DNA from: a virus
Length of the DNA stretch: 27,328 bases
IMG/VR virus record: IMGVR_UViG_3300027970_000116
Coordinates: 1-27,328 of that record
Direction: 5' to 3' (one strand)
Position numbers and translations under genes: made by a program. The notes under the pieces were generated by a model, which made no database searches, had not been told where the DNA came from, and was given only the letters and a program-made list of their open reading frames with translations. This document shows, one piece after another, positions 11,440 to 24,693 of this stretch; position 1 is the stretch's first letter, and the number at the start of each line of letters is the position of its first letter.

Positions 11440-13494
11440 ATGGGCAGCGTCCGAACCATTCAGCGCTCGTTCGGTGGAGGCGAGGTCTCGCCGGAACTGT
11501 GGGGGCGCTCCGACGACTCCAGTTATGCGTCCGGCCTGGCTACCTGTCGCAACTTCGTCACCAAGGTCCAAGGTCCGGCCGAGAACCGGGCCGGGTTTGA
11601 GTTCGTCTGTGAAGTGAAGGATTCAACCAAAGCGGTGCGCCTGATCCCGTTCACCTATTCTTCAACCCAAACCATGGTGATTGAGATTGGGGCCGGATAT
11701 TTCCGCTTCCATACCCAGGGCGCTACGCTGATGGATGGCGACGTGCCCTATGAGATTGCCAACGCCTTCGCGGAATCTGATCTGTTTGATATCCACTATG
11801 TGCAGTCCTCGGATGTGATGACACTGGTTCATCCGCTGCACCCACCGGCGGAACTGCGCCGACTCGGGGCGCTCAACTGGCAATTGATTAGCGTTAGTTT
11901 CGGTACTTCGCTCGTGCCTCCGGGTAACGTCATTTTGACACCGGTCGGAGTTCCGACGGGGGTGGGCCTTTATCTTTATCGATATGTCATCACGACGGAA
12001 TCGCTTGATCGCCTCAACGAGTCGCGGCCGAGCGGAGAAATTGCGTGCGCCAACAATCTTGGGTATACCGGGTCCAGGAATGAGCTAGTCTGGTCTTTTG
12101 TCGCGCCGAATATCTATTACAACATCTATAAAGAGATGGGTGGGTTATATGGCTTTATCGGCCAGACGGCGGAACTGGCGTTCATCGACGCCAACATTTC
12201 ACCTGACCTGAGTAAAACCCCGCCGCTTCGTGATTATGCACTCACAAAAGTCAACAACTACCCGGCGGCCGTGTCCTACTTCGAGCAACGCCGGTGTTTT
12301 GCCGGGACGCTGAATAAGCCGCAAAACCTGTGGATGACGCAATCAGGAACGGAGTCCGGAATGTCATACTCATTACCGACGCGCAACGATGATCGTATTT
12401 CTGTAAGGGTCGCCGCGCGTGAGGCCAACATCATCAGGCACATCGTGCCCCTGAGTCAGTTGTTGTTGCTGACCAGCGCCGCGGAATGGCGCGTCGGCTC
12501 GGTTAATTCCGATGCTATTACCCCGGCATCAATCAACGTCAGCCCGCAGTCTTATGTCGGCGCGTCAAACGTCCAGCCGTGCATTGTCAACAACTCACTG
12601 GTCTATGCGGTAGCGCGCGGCGGGCACATGAGAGAGTTGGCCTATTCCTGGCAATCCAGCGGATTCACCGGCGGCGATCTGTCGCTACGCGCGGGGCATC
12701 TGTTCGACGGGCTGAACATCATCGACATGGCCTATGCCAAGGCCCCGATTCCGCTGGTGTGGTGCGTCTCCTCCGGCGGCAACCTGCTGGGGCTGACCTA
12801 TGTCCCGGAGCAACAGGTAGGCGCCTGGCACCGGCACGACACCGACGGGGCCTTTGAGTCGGTTGCCGTGGTCGCCGAGGGCCTTGAGGACGTGCTTTAC
12901 GCCGTGGTGGCCAGAACCATCAACGGCACCGCGGTGCGCTACATCGAGCGGATGGCGTCGCGGCGCTTCGCCACCCCGGCGGACGCCTTCTTTGTCGACT
13001 GCGGCCTTACCTACCGCGGAGCCCCGGCGGTCCGCATCAGCGGCCTGGACTACATCGAGGGAAAGACCGTCAACATCCTCACGGACGGTGCGCCGCATCC
13101 GCAGCGGGTTGTCAACGGCGGGGCGGTCACGCTCGACTATCCCGCCGCAGTGGTCACCGTGGGGCTGCCGATCGTGGCGGACCTGCAAACGCTCCCCATG
13201 GCCGTGCAGGTTGACAGCGCCTTGGGGCAGGGGCGGGCGAAGTCGGTCAACCGCGTGTGGTTGCGGGTCTGGCGATCGTCCGGGATCTGGGTGGGGCCCG
13301 ACGCGGATCACCTGGTGGAGTCCAAGCAGCGCACCACAGAGCCTTTCGGGTCACCGCCCGCGCTCAAAAGTGCCGAGGTCGAGGTGGTCCTGTCCGCCAC
13401 GTGGGCACAGGATGGGCAGATATTCATCCGGCAACGCGACCCGTTGCCGCTGACGGTGGCATCGCTGGCGGCCGAAGTGGCCTTGGGGGGATAG
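11440..13494 (+). CDS. Tail nozzle protein (T7 gp12-like / stabilisation protein)
   Basis: This 684-residue, beta-rich protein follows the adaptor directly. The N-terminus (IQRSFGGGEVSPELWGRSDD, then YASGLATCRNFVTKVQGPAE and NRAGFEFV) is the conserved start of podovirus nozzle proteins. Later segments (RRCFAGTLNKPQNLWMTQSG; LLLLTSAAEWRVGS; YVPEQQVGAWHRHDTDGAFE) match the same family. Six copies form the narrow tube below the adaptor through which DNA and ejection proteins leave. The length fits the family. DNA around 11890-12560 is AT-richer than the ends of the gene, so this part may have recombined. The ATG overlaps nothing and lies 4 bases after the adaptor stop. Confidence 0.88.
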   Translation: MGSVRTIQRSFGGGEVSPELWGRSDDSSYASGLATCRNFVTKVQGPAENRAGFEFVCEVKDSTKAVRLIPFTYSSTQTMVIEIGAGYFRFHTQGATLMDGDVPYEIANAFAESDLFDIHYVQSSDVMTLVHPLHPPAELRRLGALNWQLISVSFGTSLVPPGNVILTPVGVPTGVGLYLYRYVITTESLDRLNESRPSGEIACANNLGYTGSRNELVWSFVAPNIYYNIYKEMGGLYGFIGQTAELAFIDANISPDLSKTPPLRDYALTKVNNYPAAVSYFEQRRCFAGTLNKPQNLWMTQSGTESGMSYSLPTRNDDRISVRVAAREANIIRHIVPLSQLLLLTSAAEWRVGSVNSDAITPASINVSPQSYVGASNVQPCIVNNSLVYAVARGGHMRELAYSWQSSGFTGGDLSLRAGHLFDGLNIIDMAYAKAPIPLVWCVSSGGNLLGLTYVPEQQVGAWHRHDTDGAFESVAVVAEGLEDVLYAVVARTINGTAVRYIERMASRRFATPADAFFVDCGLTYRGAPAVRISGLDYIEGKTVNILTDGAPHPQRVVNGGAVTLDYPAAVVTVGLPIVADLQTLPMAVQVDSALGQGRAKSVNRVWLRVWRSSGIWVGPDADHLVESKQRTTEPFGSPPALKSAEVEVVLSATWAQDGQIFIRQRDPLPLTVASLAAEVALGG

Positions 13495-14244
13495 ATGGGT
13501 TACGGCGGTGTGGTATCCAGTGTCCTGGGGGCGGTTTCATCTGCCCAAGGGGCGCTCAGTTCCGCGAAGACCACGCAGGCCAACCTGCGCTTGCAGGCGA
13601 TCGAATCCGACGCCCAGGCCACCTACGCCAAGACGCAAGCGGCCATGGCCAGGGCCAATGCCGGATTGGTCCGGGCGACCGGCAACGTCAATGCGCAGAT
13701 GGCGACCCTGACCGGGGAGACGAACGCCCGCACCGCCGAAGCCGCAGCGGCGAACGCCCTGGAAATCGGGCAAGACCAGGTGGCCGCCCTGACCCTAAAG
13801 GCAGGCCAACTCAAGGGGGCGCAGCGGGTTGCACTGGCGGCCAACGGAATCGCCATCAACGAGGGCAGCGCGCGCGAGGTACAGGCCAGCACCGACGTGC
13901 TGAAGCAGGCCGACATGGACACCCTCACCGCCAATGCCGCCCGGTCAGCCTGGGGGTATCGCACGCAAGCCGCGAACGATCGGACCGCGGCCGACTGGCA
14001 GGCGCTCAACTACCAGAACAACGCGGCGAACGAGGCGCGCAACCTCGACCAAGGGGCACAGATGCAAGGGATCACGGCCGCGAGCTACGAGCGCTCGGCC
14101 GGCTCCCAGTTGGCGACCGCCAGGGCGATCAGTCCCAACCTGGCGGCGGCCACATCACTGCTCGGGAGCGCGGGCAGCGTGGCATCGTCCTGGTACCGCT
14201 ACAGGAAGGAAATACAGGACAGTAAGAAGGAGAAAAAGCCGTGA
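13495..14244 (+). CDS. Internal virion (ejection) protein, gp14-like
   Basis: This 249-residue alanine-rich helical protein starts directly after the nozzle stop, with GGGGGGA just upstream. The central stretch (LEIGQDQVAALTLKAGQLKG, AQRVALAANGIAINEGSARE, VLKQADMDTLTANAARSAWG) is typical of T7 gp14-type core proteins of podoviruses. These are ejected into the host envelope and form part of the DNA channel. A glycine/alanine-rich segment near the C-terminus (SLLGSAGSVASSW) could insert in a membrane. A basic tail (KKEKKP) follows. It overlaps the GTG start of the next ejection protein. Confidence 0.82.
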   Translation: MGYGGVVSSVLGAVSSAQGALSSAKTTQANLRLQAIESDAQATYAKTQAAMARANAGLVRATGNVNAQMATLTGETNARTAEAAAANALEIGQDQVAALTLKAGQLKGAQRVALAANGIAINEGSAREVQASTDVLKQADMDTLTANAARSAWGYRTQAANDRTAADWQALNYQNNAANEARNLDQGAQMQGITAASYERSAGSQLATARAISPNLAAATSLLGSAGSVASSWYRYRKEIQDSKKEKKP

Positions 14245-16487
14245 GAGTCCCTGAGTATGGCGGCTTCCAGGCCCAGACATCGGCGGCGCCTCAGCCCCAG
14301 ATGACCGCACCGAAACTGACCGACACGCCGTTCACTGCCACTGCGCCCCGGATGGAGATTACCCCACAGCACGACATCGCGGGCGCGCAGGCCGGGGCCC
14401 TGGGGCAAGCAGCCGCGAATCTCGGGCAACATCTGAGCGCCATCGGTACCGACATGGCGCACGAGGCCAATCAGTATCGGTTGGCGGACGCAACGAATCA
14501 GGCGCAGGTGCACATCCAGGACCTGACCTACGATCCGAAGACGGGCTACACCAGCCTGCAGGGCAAGGACGCGCTGGAGCGGCCCGACGGCAAGCCCCTG
14601 GCCGATGAGTACGGCGCCAAGCTCAAGGGCAAGCTCGACGAGATCGCCGGCACCCTGGGCAACGACGCGCAGCGCCGGGCCTTCGCCCAGACCTCGGCCA
14701 ACCTCATGGCGCAGTTCCACGGGCAGGCCCTGGCGCACGAGGCGCAGCAGTTCAAGGTCTACAAGCAGAGCGTCACCAGTGGCACGGTGGACACCGCGGC
14801 GCGTCAGATTGGGCTGGGGTGGTCTGATCCCGCTATCACGGATGAGTCGATCGGCAGGATTGCCGCGGCGACCCGCATCCAGTACGCAGGGATGGACCCG
14901 ACGTTCGTAATGGCCAAGACCATCGAGGCCGTAAGCCCGGCGGCCAAGCTCGCCATCGAAAGCGCCCTCGACAACCATCAACCCGACATGGCGGCGGCCT
15001 ACCTGAACCGCTACTCGCAGTTCATGGGCGAAGACGACATCTACACGACGAACCTGCGCATCACCAAGGCGAAGGACGCCCAGGCGGCGCTCGGGGCCGC
15101 GGCCGACGTTATGCAGTCATCGCAGCCGGCCACACCGCTCGATCATCTGTTCGACGCGCTGTTGTGGTCGGAGTCCAGGAAACAGCACTTCGGCCCCGAT
15201 GGGCGCCCGACCACCAGCCCCAAGGGGGCGATCGGGATTGCACAAATCATGCCTGCTACCGGCCCGGAGGCGGCCAGGCTCGCGGGGGTGGACTGGGACC
15301 CGGAGCTATTCAACCGCGGGAGCACCGGCGACCCGGCCAAGGACGCCGCAGCGCAGGCCTACAACCTGAAGCTCGGCCGGGCCTACTTCAGCAACCAGTT
15401 GTCCCAGGCGGGCGGGGACCCGGCGAAGATGCTCGCCGCCTACAACGCCGGGCCGGGCAGCGCCAAGAAGGGCACCGGGCTGGCCGGGGCGATGCGCAAG
15501 GCGGCGGATGCCGGTCAGCCGGACGCCTGGTTGAACTACACCCCCCAGGAAACGCAGGACTACGTGAAGAACACCCTGGCGCGCGCCAAGTCGGCGCAGG
15601 ACAGCCCCGCGGCGCGGCCCACGCTGGAAGACCACTATGCCCGGTTGCAGGCCCATCCAAGCGTTGCCGGCAGCCCCGAGCGACTGAAGCTCGCGCAGAG
15701 CGAAATCGACGGGCAGGTGTCCCGGCAGACCGCGGCCATCAAGCAGCGCGAGGCGGAAGGCGTTACCGCGGCCATGCGCGAACTGGAGCAGAACGGCGGA
15801 AGCCTGGCCGGCCTCTCGGGGAACGCCGTGGCGGGTATCCCCGCGGGGCGGATGGGCGAGATCAAGGACTATGCCGCCAAGCTCGCCAAGGGCGTGCCGG
15901 TGGAAACCGACATGGCCCTCTATGGGCATCTGACCGCGAACCCTGATGAGTTGGCGAAAAAGTCGGATGCGGAGTTCGGCGCCCTGTCGGCGAAGATCGC
16001 CAAGGGCGATTTGGCGGTGCTCGCGGCCAAGCGCGCCAAGGCCCTGAACCCGACGGCGACCGCGGTCACCAACCCGGGCGAACTGAATTCGCCTGCCATC
16101 AAGAGCGGTTTGGATGAGCGGCTGCGGATGCTCGGCATGGACCCCACCCCGAAAGATGACAGCCCTGACGCCGGGCGGGTCGGGGCCATCCGGCAGTTCG
16201 TCGATCGTTCGATGCTGGATGCGCAGGCGCAGGGCGGCAAGAAGTTCACGGATGCGGAAGTCAACGCGCACCTGGACCGACTGTTCGCGCAGAACGCCGT
16301 CACTCCCGGCGGCTGGTTCTCGGCCGACACCTCGGGGCCGATGCTCGCGCAGAAGGTCAGTGACATCCCCAGCGAAGCGCGCAATGGCATCAAGGCGGCC
16401 TTCGTTAAGGCGGGGGTATCGAACCCAACGGACGGGCAAATCATCACCGCCTACTGGACGGCGATGACAAAGCGGGGCGGACGATGA
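14241..16487 (+). CDS. Ejection protein with lytic transglycosylase domain
   Basis: This 748-residue protein starts with GTG at 14241 (AAGGAG at 14227-14232) and overlaps the previous stop. Residues about 300-410 form a soluble lytic transglycosylase (SLT) domain. The catalytic glutamate is E311 in LLWSESR, followed by GAIGIAQIMPATGPEAARLA (about 329-348) and the substrate-groove motif AAYNAGPG (399-406). The rest is helical, as in internal core proteins of T7-like phages (gp15/gp16 roles). The enzyme would cut peptidoglycan locally so that the ejection channel can cross the cell wall. The next gene starts in its stop (ATGA). Confidence 0.88.
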   Translation: MRVPEYGGFQAQTSAAPQPQMTAPKLTDTPFTATAPRMEITPQHDIAGAQAGALGQAAANLGQHLSAIGTDMAHEANQYRLADATNQAQVHIQDLTYDPKTGYTSLQGKDALERPDGKPLADEYGAKLKGKLDEIAGTLGNDAQRRAFAQTSANLMAQFHGQALAHEAQQFKVYKQSVTSGTVDTAARQIGLGWSDPAITDESIGRIAAATRIQYAGMDPTFVMAKTIEAVSPAAKLAIESALDNHQPDMAAAYLNRYSQFMGEDDIYTTNLRITKAKDAQAALGAAADVMQSSQPATPLDHLFDALLWSESRKQHFGPDGRPTTSPKGAIGIAQIMPATGPEAARLAGVDWDPELFNRGSTGDPAKDAAAQAYNLKLGRAYFSNQLSQAGGDPAKMLAAYNAGPGSAKKGTGLAGAMRKAADAGQPDAWLNYTPQETQDYVKNTLARAKSAQDSPAARPTLEDHYARLQAHPSVAGSPERLKLAQSEIDGQVSRQTAAIKQREAEGVTAAMRELEQNGGSLAGLSGNAVAGIPAGRMGEIKDYAAKLAKGVPVETDMALYGHLTANPDELAKKSDAEFGALSAKIAKGDLAVLAAKRAKALNPTATAVTNPGELNSPAIKSGLDERLRMLGMDPTPKDDSPDAGRVGAIRQFVDRSMLDAQAQGGKKFTDAEVNAHLDRLFAQNAVTPGGWFSADTSGPMLAQKVSDIPSEARNGIKAAFVKAGVSNPTDGQIITAYWTAMTKRGGR

Positions 16488-19400
16488 GCGAGTGGGACGA
16501 CGCGGTAAGCGCGACGATGGGGGCGGCGGCGCCGGTATCGCCGGCGCTCGATGCACAGCCCCCCGGGGCGGCGACAGCCCCTGGTCAGGCCCCAAGCCAA
16601 GCCCCCGACTGGGATGCCGCCGTTGCCGCGTCAATCCAGCCTCAGGCCACTCCCGCCCGCGCCGGCTACCTGGCGGCCCAGGGCACCAACCCCGACCAGT
16701 ACGCCGCCGCACAGGACCTGGCCCGCCGGCTCGGGGTCCCGGTGCAGACCGCCATGGGCGCCGAAGGCGAAGGGCTCAAGCGCAAGCTGGCGATGGGCGA
16801 GATCGACTTCGACAAGATCGCCCGCGAGCAACCGGCGACGAACAACCGGCTGGCTAACCCCGACCAGGCGAAGCTCATGCACGACGACGTGCACACCCTC
16901 ACCGGGGTGGAACAGGCCGTGCAGCCGACCAAGGGCCTCCTCGCGGACATCGCCGGAATGCCGATGGAGTTCGCGCGGGGTTCCGGCGGCGCGACCACGC
17001 GCGCGGCGGCGGCCCTCAACACCGTGCTTGGCGCCTTCCCCGTCGTGGCCGACGCCACGGCCAACCTGTTCGGCGCCAAGACCACGGCGGCCGAAGACTG
17101 GTGGTTCTCCAACATGGTCGCGCCGACGGTCGCGCGCCAACCGCTGTTCGCCCCGGCCCCCGACGCCGGATTCCTCGGCAAGGCGGCCAACACCGCCGGC
17201 TCACTGCTCGGGGTCCTGTCGCAGATCGTGCTGAGCGGCGGCGGCGGGGCGGCCGTGCCCTTGTCCGGGACGGCCGCGGCGGGCATCGTCCCGGCGGCTG
17301 AAGCCACGGCGGCCGACGTCATCGCGGGCGCGGTCGCGCACGGGTCCAAGGCCATGCTGTTCCCGGCCCTGACCGATGCGGTCAACACCGCGCGCGAGGT
17401 CCACGGCGCGACCGGTGATCCCTGGGCGGCGGCGCGCGCGGCGCAGGTGCAGTATCTTGCCACCACGGGTATGGGCGTCCTGCCGATGTCGGTGCCGGGC
17501 GGCCTGGTCAAGCGGATGGCGTCCGGCGCGCTCTCGGGCATGACGGCGGGCGAGGCCTCGCGGGCCGCGATGAATCTTGCGCTCCCCGTCCAGATGCAAC
17601 AGCCGTTCACCGGTGAGGGCCTGGCCCTGTCCGCCCTGGCTGGTTCGGTCCTGGCGCTTGGCGGTCCCCGGGGGGAGGTCAAGGGCTATCAAGATGCCGT
17701 GCGGCGCACCTACACCGCGGCGGCCAAGGCGCAGCAGGCACAGGCCGACGCGGCGCGGCTCGGGACCCTCGGGCAACTCTCCGCGGCCAGCAAGTACCGG
17801 GAGCGCGATCCCGCGGCCTTTCACCAGTTCGTGCAGGATGCGGGCGAGGGCGGCGGGCTCAAGGAGGTCTATGTGGACGTGGCCACCCTGGGCGAGGTCC
17901 TGCATCAGGCCGGCGTCGACCGGGCGGCCCTGGCGGCCAAGCTCCCCGACCTGGAAGCCCAGATCCATGAGGCCGAGCAGACCGCGGGCATGGTCCGCAT
18001 CCCGGTGGCAGACTACGCCACCCACATTGCCGGCGGGCCGGTCGATGCCGCGCTGCTGCCGCATCTGCGCACCGACCCGGACGGGATGACCTTCAGCGAG
18101 GCGACCGCCTTCCACCAAGGCCAGGTCGAGTTGTTCACCCGAGAGGCCGACCGGGTGTTGGCGCAGCACGAGTCCGACACCGCGTGGAAGACCTCCAGCA
18201 ACGAGGTACGCGACCACATCGCCGAGCAGTTGACGGCCACCGGGCGCTTTACGGCTGATGTGGTGCGGGTCTACGCCGACCTGCATCAGGCCTTCTTCGA
18301 GGTCCTGGCGGACCGGATGCGCACCACACCGGACGCGGCCTACGCCCAGTTTGGGGCGCGGATCGTGGCCGAGTCGCTGGGCGGCCGCGGGCTTCACCAG
18401 CCGGAGGGCGAGAGTGCCACGGCACCGGAACAGCCGCGGGTGGGTCCGTTCGGGCCGATCCTTACAGAGCATGTGCACGACGCCCAGGGGGCCGTTGCCA
18501 AGCTCATGGAGATGAAGACCGGCGAGGCGGTAGGGGCGCTACATCACCCGGAGATAGGGGACATTGATCTGGTGTGGGGCCAAGAGGGGACCGGTCATCA
18601 CGACGGCTATGGCCTGTCAAAAATCGTTGCTTGGCACCCCGAGGTGGTCAACAACTTGCAGTCGATAATTTCAGGGATGCGGGTTACGAAGCGCAGCGCA
18701 AATCGGGCTCAACTGGAGTCGGAAAGCCACCAAGGAGCCGTTCGGCTTCAGTGGGACGGACAGTCAAAGCATTGGTTGTTAACTGCTTTCGAGAAAGGTA
18801 AGGAGGGGGACGGAAGCGGCGCCGAACCGAGGACAGACACGCCCGGCACTGGTAAGAAAGGTGACTCGCTTTCTCTCGCTCCCGCATCAATTGTAGAGCA
18901 GCAGATCAGTAAGTTCTACCAGAAGACCGGTGCCCCCCGCGGCGCCTACGACCCGGCAACCCGCACCATCGCCCTCCTGAAAGACGCCGACCTGACCACC
19001 TTCACCCATGAGTCGGGCCACTTCTTCCTCGACACCTACGCCAAGCTCGCGGCCCTGGCCGACGCCCCGGCCGGGGTCCGGGCGGACGTTGACGCCCTGC
19101 TGCGCTGGTTCGGCATCGAGGGCGCGCCCGAGTTGTCGGCCCTGGACGCCTGGCACCTGATGGACCTGGACGCGCAGCGTGCCCATCACGAGACCTTTGC
19201 CCGCGGCTTCGAGCAGTACCTGTTCGAGGGCAAGGCCCCGAGCGTCGAACTCAACGGGGTCTTCGGTCGCATCCGCTCATGGATGGTGCGCGTCTACCAG
19301 AGACTCGAGGCCCTGGGCGCCCCGCTCACTGCCGAGGTGCGGCAGGTCTTCGGCCGGATGCTGGCGAGCGAGGATGCCATCAAGACCGCCGAGCACGCGC

Positions 19401-22400
19401 GCGGCTATGCCGAACTGTTCAGAACCCCAGAGGACGCGGCGCGGCTCGGGATCGACCCGGCCGAGTACCGGGCCTATCAGGAGCAGGGCCGGGAGGCGAC
19501 CGCGGATGCGGTGGGCGATCTGCAAGCGCGGGCCGTGCGTGACCTGCGCTGGCTCACCAACGCCCGCAACAAGGCCCTGGCCCAGGTGCAGCGGGAGGCG
19601 CGCGGACTGCGGCAGGCGGCCCAGATGGACGCCCGGCGCGAGGTCATGTCGCAGCCGGTCTATCGGGCGTGGCAGTTCCTCACCAGCAAGCTGGGGGTCG
19701 ACGACAAGTTGCCGTCTGCTGAGCGGCCCAAGTCCGATCCAAAGACCCTGGACCCGGCCGCCCTCAATGCCGGGCGCCTGGATGAGGGCGCCCTTCACGA
19801 GGTCCTGGTGGAGAGCGCCGCGACCCCGGAAGACGGCGCGCGCATCGCCGCCCGGTTGGCGGCTGAGAAGATGATCGGCACGGGCGGGATGCACCCTGAC
19901 ATCGTGGCCGACCTGTACGGGTTCGACTCCGGTTCTGACCTGGTGCGGGCCCTGGCCGATGCCGCGCCCCCCAAGGCGGCCATCGAGGCGGCAACCGACC
20001 GGCTCATGCTGGAGCGCCACGGCGACGTAGCCACCCCCCAGGCCATGGCGCGGGCGGCCGAGGAGGCGATCCACAGCGATGCGCGGGCGCGCGTCATGGC
20101 GACCGGCATGAAGCTGCTGGGCAAGCTGGCCGGACCGGCGCGCGAGATCGCCCGGGCGGCCAAGGAAGCGGCAGAGGCGGCCATCGGCGCCAAAAGGGTT
20201 CGGGATCTGCGCCCCCTGCAGTACACCGCGGCCGAAGGCAAGGCCGGCCGGGCTCTGCTCAAGGCCATCGAGAAGGGCGACATCCCGCGGGCGGCACAGT
20301 TGCAGCGGGCGCAGTTGCTCAACAACCGGCTGGCCCGGGCGGCGGGGGAGGCATCAAAGGAGGTTGGCGGACTGCTCGCGCAGTGGGGCCGGTTCTCGCG
20401 TCGCGCCGATGACCGGCTAAAAGGGTCCTATGACATGGACCTGGTGAACGCGGTGCGGTCGATCCTCGGGCAATACGGCGTGGCACCAATCCAGGCCAAG
20501 AAGGCCGGCGAGTACCTGGGCGTGCTGGAACGCGAGGACCCCGACACCTACGCCACCGTCGCCGCGGCGGTACAGCGCGCAGAGGCCGGCGCCAAGCCGT
20601 TCCAGCAGATGACGGTCGATGAGGTGCGCGGCCTGGCGGCCGACGTGGACGCGCTCCTGCACCTGGCGCGGCGCTCCCGGCAGGTAGAGACCGACGCGGG
20701 CCGGATGGCGCTCGATCGCGTGAAAGACCACCTCGTGGGGCGCCTTGAGGACATCGGGATTCCTGATCGCGTACCCGGCGAGGGCCACGCGGTGACGCCC
20801 GGCGAAGAACGGATGGCGCAGTTCCGCACAGCCCTGGCGTGGGTGACGCGGGCCGAGGCGTGGGTGGGACGGATGGACGGGGCTCAAGCCATGGGGCCGT
20901 TCCGCCGCTTCCTGTTCAACCGCATCAAGGACGGCGCAGACGCCTACCGCCGGGACAAGGGGATCTACCTGAAGGAATACCGGGATCTGCTTGACCGGGT
21001 TGCGCCGACGCTGACGGGCGGGAAGATCGCGGCGCCTGAACTGGGTTACCGCTTCGGCGAGGCGCAGAAGAATTCTGCGATCCCCGAGATACTGCACGCC
21101 ATCCTGCACACCGGCAACGAGTCGAACGCGCGCAAGCTGCTGCTCGGCCGCGGCTGGGGGGAAGAACGCCCAGACGGCACGCTGGACCGCTCCCGGTGGG
21201 ATGCCTTCATCGCGCGCATGATCGCAGAGGGCAAGATCACCAAGGACCATTTCGACTTCGCGCAAGGCGTCTGGGACCTGTTGGAGCGCCTGAAGCCGGC
21301 GGCGCAGCAGGCGCACCGCGACGCCTATGGGCGCTATTTCGCTGAGGTCACCGCCGACCCGGTAGCAACCCCGTTCGGGGAGTACCGGGGCGGGTACGTG
21401 CCGGCCAAGACTGATCCGCGCGTCGTCAAGGATGCGGCGCTGCGTGAACTTCTCGACAAGGAAAATGCGGGGATGGCCTACGCCTTCCCGGCGACATCCA
21501 AGGGGTTCACCAAGGGGCGCGTCGAGTACAACAAGCCCTTGCTGCTGGACCTGCGCTCGCTCGCCCAGCACATCGACCAGGTGTTGCTGTTCTCGCATCT
21601 CGACAACCCGGTGCGCGACACCCAGCGGATTATCCGCGCGATCGGCGGTCCGCTGGAGCGGGTCCAGCCCGGCGTCGTGTCAGGGATGCTCATCCCCTGG
21701 CTGAACCGCACCGCCAAGCAGCAGGTGGTAACGCCCGTCAGCCATGATGCGGGGATGTCGCGGTTTTTCACGGTGCTGCGGTCGCGGGCCGGGGCCGCGG
21801 CGATGTTCGGCAACATCTCGAACGCGCTGCAGCAGGTGTCCGGATTTGGCCTTGCCGCGCTCAAGGTCCCCCCGGGTCACTTGCTGTCGGCCATGGTCGA
21901 TTATGCGAAACATCCCCGTAAGCTGGCCGCGGCGGTAGCTGATGCCTCTATTTACATGAAGGATCGGCTTGACAGTGACACCATGAGCATGAGCGATGAC
22001 ATCAGGCAAATACTGATGAACCCGTCAGTCTTGGCGCGCGCGCAAGATTGGACGCTGCGCCATGCTTACTTCATGCAACTGGCCGTTGATAGCGTAATGA
22101 GCCCGGTAGTATGGACGGGCGCCTATAACCATGCTATTGCTAAAAGCATGAGTCATGCCGATGCGGTACGCCTGGCCGACTCAGCGGTGCGCGAAACCCA
22201 AGGCAGTTTCCTCCCGGAAGACGTGAGCCGGATCGAAGCGGTAAACGCTTTTACCAGGCTGTTCACCCAGTTTGCCGGCTACTTCAACACCTGGGCCAAC
22301 CTGCTTGGCACCGAATTCTCTAAGGTCACCCACGAGGCGGGGCTGGCGCAGCAATACCAGCGCGGTTTCTATGTCTTCATGGTGGGCTATCTGGCCCCCG

Positions 22401-22873
22401 CGGTGGTCGCCGAATTGGTGACTCAAGTATTTCGTGGCGGACCGCATGATAATAACGACGATGGAAGTTATCTTGATGACTGGTTGCGGCAATTATTCGT
22501 AATTGGACCCGTGCGCAGCGCAACCGCGATGATCCCAATCGGCGGGTCAGCCATCAACGCGGGTGTTAATACTTGGAATAGCAAGCCCTATGATGATCGC
22601 ATCGCCACCTCACCGGCAATCTCAATGATTGAGGCGACGGTAAGAGCGCCGGTATCGGCCTATGACGCTATCGTGAATGGCAAGAGCGGCCAGAAGGCCA
22701 TCCGCGACGTGGCCACCTTGATATCTCTGACGATCGGGGTCCCTCTTACGTTGCCCGCGCGGCCGGTCGGTTATCTCGCGGACGTGGCCGGCGGGAAAAT
22801 CCGCCCGTCCGGCCCCGTTGATCTTGCCCGCGGCGTCGTAACGGGGATCGCCAGTCCGGGCAGCAAGGACTAA
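16484..22873 (+). CDS. Giant ejection protein with PBECR-type nuclease and metallopeptidase motifs
   Basis: This 2129-residue protein is the largest gene and probably the gp16-like ejection protein. Residues 1-60 are proline/alanine-rich. Residues about 160-400 are glycine/alanine-rich and partly hydrophobic. About 656-772 match the phage barnase/EndoU/colicin/RelE-like (PBECR) nuclease pattern: GDIDLVWGQEG, GYGLSKIVAWHPEVVNNLQ, AVRLQWDG, KHWLLTAFEK. This part (about 18540-18900) is AT-richer than its flanks. At 842-846 is HESGH, a zinc metallopeptidase HExxH motif, followed by HETFARGFEQYLFEG with E903 as a possible third ligand. This pair is common in large phage polyvalent proteins. The long middle is helical and the C-terminal 380 residues have hydrophobic helices (VFMVGYLAPAVVAELV). 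It would be injected with DNA and could act in the host envelope or cytoplasm. Catalysis is inferred from motifs only. Confidence 0.82.
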   Translation: MSEWDDAVSATMGAAAPVSPALDAQPPGAATAPGQAPSQAPDWDAAVAASIQPQATPARAGYLAAQGTNPDQYAAAQDLARRLGVPVQTAMGAEGEGLKRKLAMGEIDFDKIAREQPATNNRLANPDQAKLMHDDVHTLTGVEQAVQPTKGLLADIAGMPMEFARGSGGATTRAAAALNTVLGAFPVVADATANLFGAKTTAAEDWWFSNMVAPTVARQPLFAPAPDAGFLGKAANTAGSLLGVLSQIVLSGGGGAAVPLSGTAAAGIVPAAEATAADVIAGAVAHGSKAMLFPALTDAVNTAREVHGATGDPWAAARAAQVQYLATTGMGVLPMSVPGGLVKRMASGALSGMTAGEASRAAMNLALPVQMQQPFTGEGLALSALAGSVLALGGPRGEVKGYQDAVRRTYTAAAKAQQAQADAARLGTLGQLSAASKYRERDPAAFHQFVQDAGEGGGLKEVYVDVATLGEVLHQAGVDRAALAAKLPDLEAQIHEAEQTAGMVRIPVADYATHIAGGPVDAALLPHLRTDPDGMTFSEATAFHQGQVELFTREADRVLAQHESDTAWKTSSNEVRDHIAEQLTATGRFTADVVRVYADLHQAFFEVLADRMRTTPDAAYAQFGARIVAESLGGRGLHQPEGESATAPEQPRVGPFGPILTEHVHDAQGAVAKLMEMKTGEAVGALHHPEIGDIDLVWGQEGTGHHDGYGLSKIVAWHPEVVNNLQSIISGMRVTKRSANRAQLESESHQGAVRLQWDGQSKHWLLTAFEKGKEGDGSGAEPRTDTPGTGKKGDSLSLAPASIVEQQISKFYQKTGAPRGAYDPATRTIALLKDADLTTFTHESGHFFLDTYAKLAALADAPAGVRADVDALLRWFGIEGAPELSALDAWHLMDLDAQRAHHETFARGFEQYLFEGKAPSVELNGVFGRIRSWMVRVYQRLEALGAPLTAEVRQVFGRMLASEDAIKTAEHARGYAELFRTPEDAARLGIDPAEYRAYQEQGREATADAVGDLQARAVRDLRWLTNARNKALAQVQREARGLRQAAQMDARREVMSQPVYRAWQFLTSKLGVDDKLPSAERPKSDPKTLDPAALNAGRLDEGALHEVLVESAATPEDGARIAARLAAEKMIGTGGMHPDIVADLYGFDSGSDLVRALADAAPPKAAIEAATDRLMLERHGDVATPQAMARAAEEAIHSDARARVMATGMKLLGKLAGPAREIARAAKEAAEAAIGAKRVRDLRPLQYTAAEGKAGRALLKAIEKGDIPRAAQLQRAQLLNNRLARAAGEASKEVGGLLAQWGRFSRRADDRLKGSYDMDLVNAVRSILGQYGVAPIQAKKAGEYLGVLEREDPDTYATVAAAVQRAEAGAKPFQQMTVDEVRGLAADVDALLHLARRSRQVETDAGRMALDRVKDHLVGRLEDIGIPDRVPGEGHAVTPGEERMAQFRTALAWVTRAEAWVGRMDGAQAMGPFRRFLFNRIKDGADAYRRDKGIYLKEYRDLLDRVAPTLTGGKIAAPELGYRFGEAQKNSAIPEILHAILHTGNESNARKLLLGRGWGEERPDGTLDRSRWDAFIARMIAEGKITKDHFDFAQGVWDLLERLKPAAQQAHRDAYGRYFAEVTADPVATPFGEYRGGYVPAKTDPRVVKDAALRELLDKENAGMAYAFPATSKGFTKGRVEYNKPLLLDLRSLAQHIDQVLLFSHLDNPVRDTQRIIRAIGGPLERVQPGVVSGMLIPWLNRTAKQQVVTPVSHDAGMSRFFTVLRSRAGAAAMFGNISNALQQVSGFGLAALKVPPGHLLSAMVDYAKHPRKLAAAVADASIYMKDRLDSDTMSMSDDIRQILMNPSVLARAQDWTLRHAYFMQLAVDSVMSPVVWTGAYNHAIAKSMSHADAVRLADSAVRETQGSFLPEDVSRIEAVNAFTRLFTQFAGYFNTWANLLGTEFSKVTHEAGLAQQYQRGFYVFMVGYLAPAVVAELVTQVFRGGPHDNNDDGSYLDDWLRQLFVIGPVRSATAMIPIGGSAINAGVNTWNSKPYDDRIATSPAISMIEATVRAPVSAYDAIVNGKSGQKAIRDVATLISLTIGVPLTLPARPVGYLADVAGGKIRPSGPVDLARGVVTGIASPGSKD

Positions 22874-22935: not shown

Positions 22936-23703
22936 ATGACGATTGCCGCGACCCTGCGCAAGGCCGGACCCTATGACGGCACCGGTGTGCGGACTCTGTT
23001 CCCGTTCCTCTTCAAGGTGTTCGTCGCGTCTGACCTGCTGGTCATCCGCACCGATGCCGCCGGCACCGAGTTCACGCTGGTGTTGGACCACGACTACACC
23101 GTCTCTCTGTCGCAGGATCAGGACGCCAACCCGGGCGGGTTTGTGATACTCACCGAAGCCGCAGCAGTCGGCGAGTTGGTGACCCTCACCAGCGCCGTGC
23201 CCTACATCCAGCCGCTACAGTTGACCAATTCGGGGGGATTTTACCCAAGCGTCATCAACGCGGCCTTCGATCGCGTGTGTATGCAGATTCAACAACTCGC
23301 TGAGCAATCTGCCAGAACCTTCAAGGTTCCTATTTCGTCGGTTCCTGCCGCCGTGTTTTCGATCATGGAGTATCTCAATGCGTCAAGTATTGCCGCCACT
23401 CTCGCCAATACCGCCGCGGTCAATGCTGGGATCTCTGCGGAGGGCGCCCGGCGATACTATGAAGCAACCATGGCGGCAGCGGAGACAGCACTGGGGTTGC
23501 GGGAGCCGGTAGACCTGGCGATTGCCTATATCGACTTGCACTCCGTGCCGCGGATAACCTTCGAGGCCATGTATACCGCCGGCGGGTGGAACATGGGCGG
23601 GCTTCCCGGTGCTGGTCTGGCGTTCAGTAGCGAACGCGGCGCTTCCCGCGCGGCCAGCTTCGCATTTGGCACCTCTACGATTGATCTTGGTGCGCCAACT
23701 TAG
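22936..23703 (+). CDS. Tail fibre/spike anchoring protein
   Basis: This 255-residue protein begins with the T7 gp17-like tail-attachment domain seen in many podovirus fibres: TIAATLRKAGPYDGTGVRTL, FPFLFKVF, LVLDHDYTVSLSQDQDANPG, and FYPSVINAAFDRVCMQIQQL. A helical region rich in alanine (about 150-185) follows, then a short glycine-rich end (GWNMGGLPGAGLAF). It lacks a large receptor-binding domain, so it probably anchors the next protein to the tail. GGAG at 22920-22923 is its ribosome-binding site, rather far from the ATG (12 bases). Confidence 0.82.
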   Translation: MTIAATLRKAGPYDGTGVRTLFPFLFKVFVASDLLVIRTDAAGTEFTLVLDHDYTVSLSQDQDANPGGFVILTEAAAVGELVTLTSAVPYIQPLQLTNSGGFYPSVINAAFDRVCMQIQQLAEQSARTFKVPISSVPAAVFSIMEYLNASSIAATLANTAAVNAGISAEGARRYYEATMAAAETALGLREPVDLAIAYIDLHSVPRITFEAMYTAGGWNMGGLPGAGLAFSSERGASRAASFAFGTSTIDLGAPT

Positions 23704-23712
23704 GTAACAAAT

Positions 23713-24693
23713 ATGCCTGACCAGATACAATGGCGCGGCGGCAGCACTGCCGAGCACGCGGTTTTCACCGGCGCGGTGCGCGAGATCACCGTCGACACGA
23801 CCAAGAAGACGTTGGTGGTACATGACGGCGTGACGGTGGGCGGCTTGCCCTTGATGCGCGAGGACATGGCGAACTCAACCGCGTCAGTGGGTGTGCTGCA
23901 AAACCTGAGCGGGCATTCCGGCGCGCTCATCACCAACGGGGTGTCCTTATCCTGGCTTGACGGACCGCTCGGAGAACGGAACTTCATCCACAACAGTTGC
24001 TTTTCCGTCAACCAGCGGGCCAAGTCCGGAACGGTGACGCTCGCGGCCGGCGCCTATGGCCATGATCGCTGGAAGGCTGGGGCAACCGGTTGCACCTATA
24101 ACTTTGCGGTAGTCGCCGGTCTGACGACGGTGACAATCACGGCGGGATCGCTGATCCAGGTCATCGAGTCGTGCAACCTTCCGGGCGGCACCGGCAACTG
24201 CACGCTGTCGTGGACCGGCGCCGCGCTGGGTAAGATCGGCGGCGGCAGTTACGCGGCCTCACCGATTATCGCCGCAGTGACCGGCGGCGCTAACCTCAAT
24301 GTCGAGTTCTACGCCGGGACCCTGACCAAGGTCCAGCTTGAACCGGGGTCAGTCGCTACCCCGTTTATTCGCCCGAATTATACTGATGACCGGCGGCGGT
24401 GCCAGCGGTATTACCAACAGATAGGCGGAAAAGTCGCTGGCGACATCTGGGTCAATCAGTATACCGCGGTCGGCGGAACTGAGATTGTAGGAACTTATTC
24501 GTTCGGAACAGAAATGGCTAGAATTCCGACGATGACGGTGGTCGGTACCTGGACGGTGCTGCGTGCGGGGCAGCCGACGGTTATCACCGTCACGCCATTT
24601 AATTTCGTGTGGCAAGCATCATCAACAACTGTCGGGGTTGCCAGTGTGGCATCGACGTTGACCGCGTATTTTACAGCATCTGCTGAGCTGTAA
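23713..24693 (+). CDS. Receptor-binding tail fibre protein
   Basis: This is a 326-residue protein. The N-terminus (DQIQWRGGSTAEHAVFTGAV, then REITVDTTKKTLVVHDG) is the Mtd-type fibre N-terminal pattern that recurs at the start of phage fibres. The body is beta-rich, with RNFIHNSCFSVNQRAKSGTV, GAYGHDRWKAG and QLEPGSVATPFIRP, as in phage carbohydrate-binding fibre tips. The segment DDRRRCQRYYQQIGG follows. It probably binds the host surface. No reverse transcriptase or template repeat of a diversity-generating system is visible near it. Nine bases separate it from the anchor gene, and its stop overlaps the next start (TAATG). Confidence 0.8.
   Translation: MPDQIQWRGGSTAEHAVFTGAVREITVDTTKKTLVVHDGVTVGGLPLMREDMANSTASVGVLQNLSGHSGALITNGVSLSWLDGPLGERNFIHNSCFSVNQRAKSGTVTLAAGAYGHDRWKAGATGCTYNFAVVAGLTTVTITAGSLIQVIESCNLPGGTGNCTLSWTGAALGKIGGGSYAASPIIAAVTGGANLNVEFYAGTLTKVQLEPGSVATPFIRPNYTDDRRRCQRYYQQIGGKVAGDIWVNQYTAVGGTEIVGTYSFGTEMARIPTMTVVGTWTVLRAGQPTVITVTPFNFVWQASSTTVGVASVASTLTAYFTASAEL

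Follow-up and report, generated by a model that had tools for sequence, protein, structure and literature searches.

We analysed a window of 27,328 bases, a virus record with podovirus late genes, and found that the PBECR1 domain of its giant protein occupies one fixed slot, which in the relatives of this phage holds varied cargo or none. The separate insertion of the domain, which an earlier note on this DNA had suggested from base composition, therefore holds beyond the window phage. We read the domain as an exchangeable RNase effector that is delivered with the virion and freed by an adjacent peptidase, with a probability of roughly 0.68 for this reading as a whole, in which the RNase activity, the cleavage and the target are what we infer.

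The PBECR1 domain and its setting

The late genes of the window encode the small terminase subunit, portal, major capsid, tail and internal virion proteins, an SLT transglycosylase, the giant protein and tail fibres, so that the giant ORF sits among virion genes (terminase, portal, capsid, tail, internal virion; Table 1). Around the giant gene, the gene order is that of Bordetella phage BPP-1, whose orthologue Bbp10 shares about 36% identity with the giant protein over 80% of its length. Based on gene order, position and homology, the giant protein is presumed to be packaged and injected with the phage DNA; a literature search found no virion proteomics covering it. Pfam identified PBECR1 and LPD22 in the giant protein and nothing else, and a large multidomain protein that combines an effector (PBECR1) with an LPD domain (LPD22) in 2129 residues is a feature of polyvalent proteins. 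PADLOC and NCBIfam scans gave no relevant match, and the public label "crystallin beta/gamma motif-containing", found on Bbp10-like proteins, gets no support from Pfam here.

Elsewhere in the window, a GNAT-type acetyltransferase gene (PF00583, phrog_1249; 2491-2937) lies between the ORF at 952-2451 and the portal gene. The product of 23713-24693 starts with an Mtd_N domain, which the BPP-1 tropism determinant also has, but the rest of it is a different tail fibre (phrog_4492); among the window ORFs scanned, none was identified as a reverse transcriptase.

Table 1. Features of the giant gene and its surroundings in the window (aa, amino acids; res, residues of the giant protein)
Feature	Position	Strand	Basis
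Internal virion protein	13495..14244	+	phrog_418
SLT transglycosylase virion protein, overlaps giant gene start	14241..16487	+	PF01464 E=2.1e-9; phrog_10475
Giant protein, 2129 aa, presumed ejection/internal virion protein; orthologue of BPP-1 Bbp10	16484..22873	+	ORF; phrog_9880 over res 800-2122
LPD22 domain, res 60-150, typical of polyvalent proteins	16661..16933	+	Pfam E=1.7e-14, above cut-off
N-side backbone module (anchor), res 414-634, found in filled and empty alleles alike	17723..18385	+	Profile search, alignment, model
Cargo slot, variable between orthologues	18386..18937	+	Profile survey, DNA alignment of pairs
First tether, res 639-650, predicted disordered (pLDDT <50)	18398..18433	+	Model
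PBECR1 nuclease domain (predicted), full conserved extent, res 655-774	18446..18805	+	Pfam, homologue alignment, model
Pfam core of PBECR1, res 686-773	18539-18802	+	Pfam
His718, predicted catalytic His	18635..18637	+	98% His, 2% Arg in 104 homologues (98% partly conditioned because one locus-finding pattern contained the His); 13/13 aligned slot alleles
Arg741, probable active-site Arg	18704..18706	+	77% of 104 homologues; 11/13 slot alleles
Thr767, predicted catalytic Thr/Ser, last strand	18782..18784	+	94% Thr, 4% Ser in 104 homologues (absent from every search pattern used to find loci); 13/13 slot alleles
Second tether, res 770-816, predicted disordered; RTDT tail motif at 18830-18841	18791..18931	+	Model; motif search
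C-side backbone module, res 819-1090, begins with zincin-like metallopeptidase (predicted)	18938..19753	+	Alignment, profile search
HESGH motif, res 842-846, predicted metallopeptidase active site	19007..19021	+	H, E, H invariant in 16 aligned orthologues
Tail fibre protein, 62 bp from giant gene	22936..23703	+	ORF list; PHROG match

The earlier note had placed a PBECR-type nuclease domain at 18450-18905, quoting the strings GDIDLVWGQEG, GYGLSKI and KHWLLTAFEK, all of which are in frame within the giant ORF. A profile search of the PBECR families confirmed the assignment, with PF18809 (PBECR1) matching well above its curated cut-off (E=5.9e-10, 40 bits versus 27.6); the slot scanned alone against Pfam gave E=1.8e-11. 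The domain does lie where it was placed, but the proposed span included about 100 bases of disordered linker. Scans of viral and genome contigs yielded 80 and 43 loci, respectively. In 104 dereplicated homologues, the conserved unit starts 30 residues ahead of the Pfam model (F656, G657, A670, G680) and the near-invariant positions include G657, A670, G692, G699, G710, H718 and T767.

According to a previous study, the PBECR1 active site consists of a His in a helix and a C-terminal Ser/Thr (PMC5512222). The same arrangement is found in the window, where H718 ends a predicted helix and T767 lies in the last strand. A conserved His and Lys had been suggested as the residues to mutate; the His is borne out by His718, whereas Lys713 of the window stands at a position occupied by K in 75% of the 104 homologues and by H in the other 25%, and the second conserved residue is Thr767. 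The PBECR1 family is under purifying selection, with dN/dS below 0.6 in 18 of 18 independent pairs and at or below 0.21 in 15 of them, the window's own nearest pair being saturated.

An AlphaFold2 model of residues 649-780 reached a mean pLDDT of 89.8. Its best neighbour in the PDB was CdiA-CT BWH57 (Z 5.0, 81 residues, 3.5 A), followed by CdiA-CT NC101 (Z 4.7), BrnT (4.3), RelE, CdiA-CT Kp342, YoeB and HigB, nearly all of which are BECR toxins. The scores are weak singly (Z <=5.0, Foldseek E >0.1), and it is the agreement across the list of neighbours that points to a BECR fold. The retention of catalytic residues in a structural model had been raised as a check on the assignment, and the predicted active-site residues are kept here, in a model of high confidence that among solved structures comes closest to BECR RNase toxins. 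A sequence search of solved structures detected no similarity of the domain to CdiA-CT, BrnT or RelE, and a match to olivetolic acid cyclase (35 residues, E 0.13-0.6) was taken as chance; neither this search nor the literature yielded a PBECR1 member with an assay or a solved structure.

Among phage records, the best match to the domain is BPP-1 (65%), followed by Pseudomonas phage Itty13, Sinorhizobium PBC5, Agrobacterium Atu_ph08, Burkholderia BcepMigl and many Helicobacter and Campylobacter prophages. A plasmid search returned no PBECR1 relative at E 1e-3, and the PBECR2 profile matched nothing in the window, but it left the control genomes unmatched too, which makes this negative uninformative. 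Two relatives carry the domain in other forms. In one (L033, ORF at 1022), PBECR1 occurs in tandem at ORF residues 1823 and 1994, the copies being 92% identical (dS 0.105, dN/dS 0.58), which is a recent duplication. In the other (L064, 6839-7375), PBECR1 stands alone beside a giant protein, as an ORF of 178 aa that closely precedes one of 1766 aa.

One slot with exchangeable cargo

In a BLAST search with the giant protein, orthologues aligned on either side of the domain and not across it. We surveyed this slot by searching all loci with profiles of the N-side module (residues about 405-642) and the C-side module (819-1090), and obtained 105 ORFs with both modules, or 84 after dereplication at 90%. 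The distance between the modules ranged from 8 to 1241 aa. Comparison with relatives lacking the domain, as the earlier note had proposed, was thus possible, since six of the 84 orthologues are empty at the slot (8-28 aa). The others hold PBECR1 (14, a set partly found by PBECR1 searching), ART (23), PBECR5 (6) or other cargo (36), one slot having both ART and PBECR5. In a sample selected by the C-side module only (76 contigs, not dereplicated), there were 7 PBECR1, 19 ART, 5 PBECR5, 1 ART plus PBECR5, 6 empty and 38 other slots. Pfam assigned the 78 filled slots to ART-PolyVal (23), PBECR1 (14), PBECR5 (6), LPD3 (6), PBECR3 (5), GNAT (about 5) and MuF_C (3), with single cases of RadC and zeta toxin, and our custom profiles agreed with it exactly for ART, PBECR1 and PBECR5.

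Seven slots (L194, L165, L184, L177, L158, L149 and L212) carry cargo of 97-301 aa that has no Pfam match at E 0.01, and these are candidates for unnamed effector domains. Limnohabitans phage DC33 (GenBank PQ492659, L002) is filed under Inoviridae, yet it encodes a podovirus-type giant protein of 3133 aa, and its taxonomy line looks wrong.

Pairs of relatives document the exchange itself. Over the 8.4 kb that lead to the slot, the DNA of L173 (ART) and L182 (PBECR3) is 85.5% identical, and beyond the slot end it is 89.3% identical; inside the slot it cannot be aligned. The empty L202 and the ART-bearing L167 align on both sides, with 36 bp and about 890 bp in between, respectively, so that the ART cargo of L167 is an insertion relative to L202; L176/L166 and L012/L013 are further ART/PBECR5 pairs. 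The relatives are in general mostly metagenomic contigs, in which a chimeric assembly could fake one swap, but not the whole pattern. On a tree of the C-side (peptidase) module, a quick tree with some long branches, the cargo labels change 37 times, where 5 changes would be the fewest possible and shuffling gives a mean of 42.2 (5 of 200 shuffles were as low as 37), so the cargo is only weakly tied to lineage. The histories of domain and backbone also differ, since their identities to the window disagree in opposite directions: L156 has a backbone of 52/54% and a PBECR1 of 38%, while L031 has a backbone of 24/32% and a PBECR1 of 63%. Giant proteins that otherwise share little or nothing with that of the window also carry PBECR1, with an identity of about 47-63%.

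The DNA of the slot is AT-richer than both sides, as had been noticed, with GC of 0.60 and GC3 of 0.67 against 0.70 and 0.90 in the flanks. The same tendency is seen in 68 of the 78 relatives with a filled slot (mean difference 3.5 points, Wilcoxon p=4.5e-11). A second AT-rich stretch is present in the giant gene, at about 21900-22800 of the window (residues ~1800-2100; GC3 0.62-0.70). Because of it, composition alone would not prove insertion, and an AT-rich stretch might be a fast-evolving, vertically inherited segment instead of a separately acquired module. This explanation is refuted by the empty alleles and the near-identical pairs with different cargo, which show the insertion independently of composition, as well as by the discordant identities of cargo and backbone and by the presence of the same domain in otherwise dissimilar giant proteins, and we regard its chance of being correct as negligible.

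Proposed release, activity and competing explanations

In a model of residues 414-1082, built from 19 sequences (mean pLDDT 75.8), the N-side module is folded, and the cargo fold that follows it lies between two disordered stretches (639-650 and 770-816), after which comes a helical C-side module with HESGH. The predicted peptidase identity of the C-side module is based on the HExxH motif, whose His842 is retained in empty-slot alleles as well, and on the literature (PMC5512222), where such metallopeptidases were proposed to release the remaining domains of polyvalent proteins, either ahead of injection or after it. The Bbp10 region has also been grouped with zincin-type CLCA metalloproteases (PMC3650047). 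Pfam matched no peptidase domain in the giant protein, and Foldseek of the 669-residue two-module model gave weak matches only, with PprI and a lethal-factor entry among many. Cargo held on two tethers that the peptidase may cleave is the simplest reading of this arrangement.

Behind PBECR1, 32 of 96 tails contain a short motif of the form TDT-x-DDTA at a nearly constant distance, compared with a mean of 1.7 after shuffling, a contrast that is overstated because the pattern was written after seeing the tails, and the tails carrying it may be related by descent. In filled slots with other cargo the motif was present in 4 of 64, and the window tail is a variant, RTDT...GDS. The tail appears to travel with the domain, because such tails sit in otherwise unrelated giant proteins; one guess is that it serves as a recognition or cleavage signal. 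Its action as a cis-inhibitor was considered and found no support, since the tail is predicted to be disordered.

We propose that residues 655-774 form a metal-independent endoRNase effector of the BECR fold, carried as cargo in one slot of the ejection protein. The giant protein would be packaged with other internal proteins and enter the cell as infection begins, and the adjoining HExxH module might then cut one or both disordered tethers and free the nuclease. The freed enzyme would cleave an RNA that is important in the first minutes, which may be host mRNA or tRNA, or a host-defence RNA, and within-gene recombination would swap the cassette (ART, PBECR3, PBECR5, LPD3, GNAT-like) in response to changes in host targets or defences. 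Iyer et al. suggested mRNA or CRISPR RNA as the target of PBECR domains (PMC5512222), and the BECR RNases with the nearest folds cleave tRNA or ribosome-bound mRNA (PMC9086364); we favour no particular target, other than an RNA of importance early in infection. If the RNase acted specifically as a counter-defence against RNA-based host immunity, such as CRISPR RNA or similar, and not on host mRNA or tRNA, this would fit both the proposal of Iyer et al. for PBECR diversity (PMC5512222) and the fast turnover of cargo on a stable backbone, as expected in an arms race. However, most of the closest folds belong to tRNases and ribosome-dependent mRNases, and such a restriction to defence RNA appears doubtful, though worth keeping in mind.

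Membership in a PBECR family does not guarantee activity, because an inactive PBECR domain was described in the MuF protein of phage Mu by Iyer et al. The domain might likewise be catalytically dead or mainly RNA-binding, as a structural part of the ejection protein, and no activity data for PBECR1 were found in the literature. Against a dead domain, H718 and T767 are kept throughout the slot alleles and in nearly all of the 104 homologues, and selection on the family is purifying; against a structural role, the cargo is not needed to build the giant protein, because six orthologues do without any. A dead or structural domain is thus unlikely. The comparison with polymorphic toxins, drawn in the earlier note, holds for an exchangeable module on a conserved backbone, but fails at the immunity gene and at the internal position of the cargo. 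In its strict form, a killing domain with a cognate immunity gene would protect lysogens and target competitors. This agrees with the temperate lifestyle of BPP-1, the closest isolate, and with the nearest solved folds, which are BECR toxins with immunity proteins. Temperate phages with MuF toxins provide a precedent (PMC5576092). However, there is no room for an immunity gene beside the giant gene, which overlaps the preceding gene and leaves 62 bp to the next, consistent with the earlier remark that none was evident nearby; the downstream gap is usually about 60 bp across orthologues, whatever the cargo, and no neighbour recurs systematically among them. L173 and L182, with their different cargo, show no second swapped gene in the 8.4 kb upstream or directly downstream, while the tail-fibre region further on differs. 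In addition, the domain is internal and not C-terminal, ending at residue 774 of 2129. Because of the missing partner gene and the internal position, a polymorphic toxin in the strict sense is quite improbable, although the logic of exchange is the same.

In one relative (L166), a 188-aa antisense ORF (13135-13701, minus strand) lies between the giant gene and the tail fibre gene. It has no Pfam or PHROG match and is absent in the near relative L176, and this single case was not counted as immunity.

Relation to known systems and meaning

Since the description of PBECR domains in polyvalent proteins by Iyer et al. in 2017 (PMC5512222), the PBECR1 family, its predicted activity and its place in such proteins have been known. 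The domain studied here resembles that description in its Pfam family, its predicted His and Ser/Thr site and its giant virion-context protein with LPD and HExxH. The mosaicism reported there concerned mainly Helicobacter prophage proteins, and Bordetella is unmentioned in the text (PMC5512222), whereas here one conserved slot has empty states and states with unrelated cargo. BPP-1 has the same arrangement, with an orthologous giant protein, the same gene order, and LPD22 and PBECR1 at the same positions, and differs in sequence, the domain being 65% identical and the whole proteins about 36%. The CdiA-CT toxins of Serratia BWH57, E. coli NC101 and K. pneumoniae Kp342, together with BrnT and RelE, are the best structural neighbours and suggest a shared BECR RNase fold (PMC9086364). 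They differ in belonging to contact-dependent inhibition or toxin-antitoxin pairs, with immunity or antitoxin partners. In MuF systems, the toxin is C-terminal on the MuF head protein. These toxins of temperate phages are also toxin-like domains on a phage particle protein that are exchanged between phages (PMC5576092), while the cargo here is internal to a podovirus ejection protein and no immunity gene was found.

The new detail is the exchange of cassettes at a single slot, with empty alleles and near-isogenic swaps. No description of such a slot in the Bbp10-type family was found in the literature searched, whose partial coverage makes this weak evidence of novelty. It is possible, at a little short of even odds, that Bbp10-type ejection proteins use the single slot as a delivery platform, in which unrelated effectors, several of which belong to no Pfam family, are inserted, removed and exchanged as whole units between disordered tethers beside a processing peptidase; the TDT-x-DDTA-like tail would in that case belong to the cassette, perhaps as its cleavage or recognition signal. 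The unnamed cargos can be used directly as a list of candidates for effector or counter-defence domains. Since isolates with the same backbone exist, namely BPP-1 (Bordetella bronchiseptica, PBECR1) and DC33 (Limnohabitans, ART), cargo deletions are directly comparable, and the fixed slot, the natural empty alleles and the near-isogenic swaps make the function of phage-injected enzymes testable.
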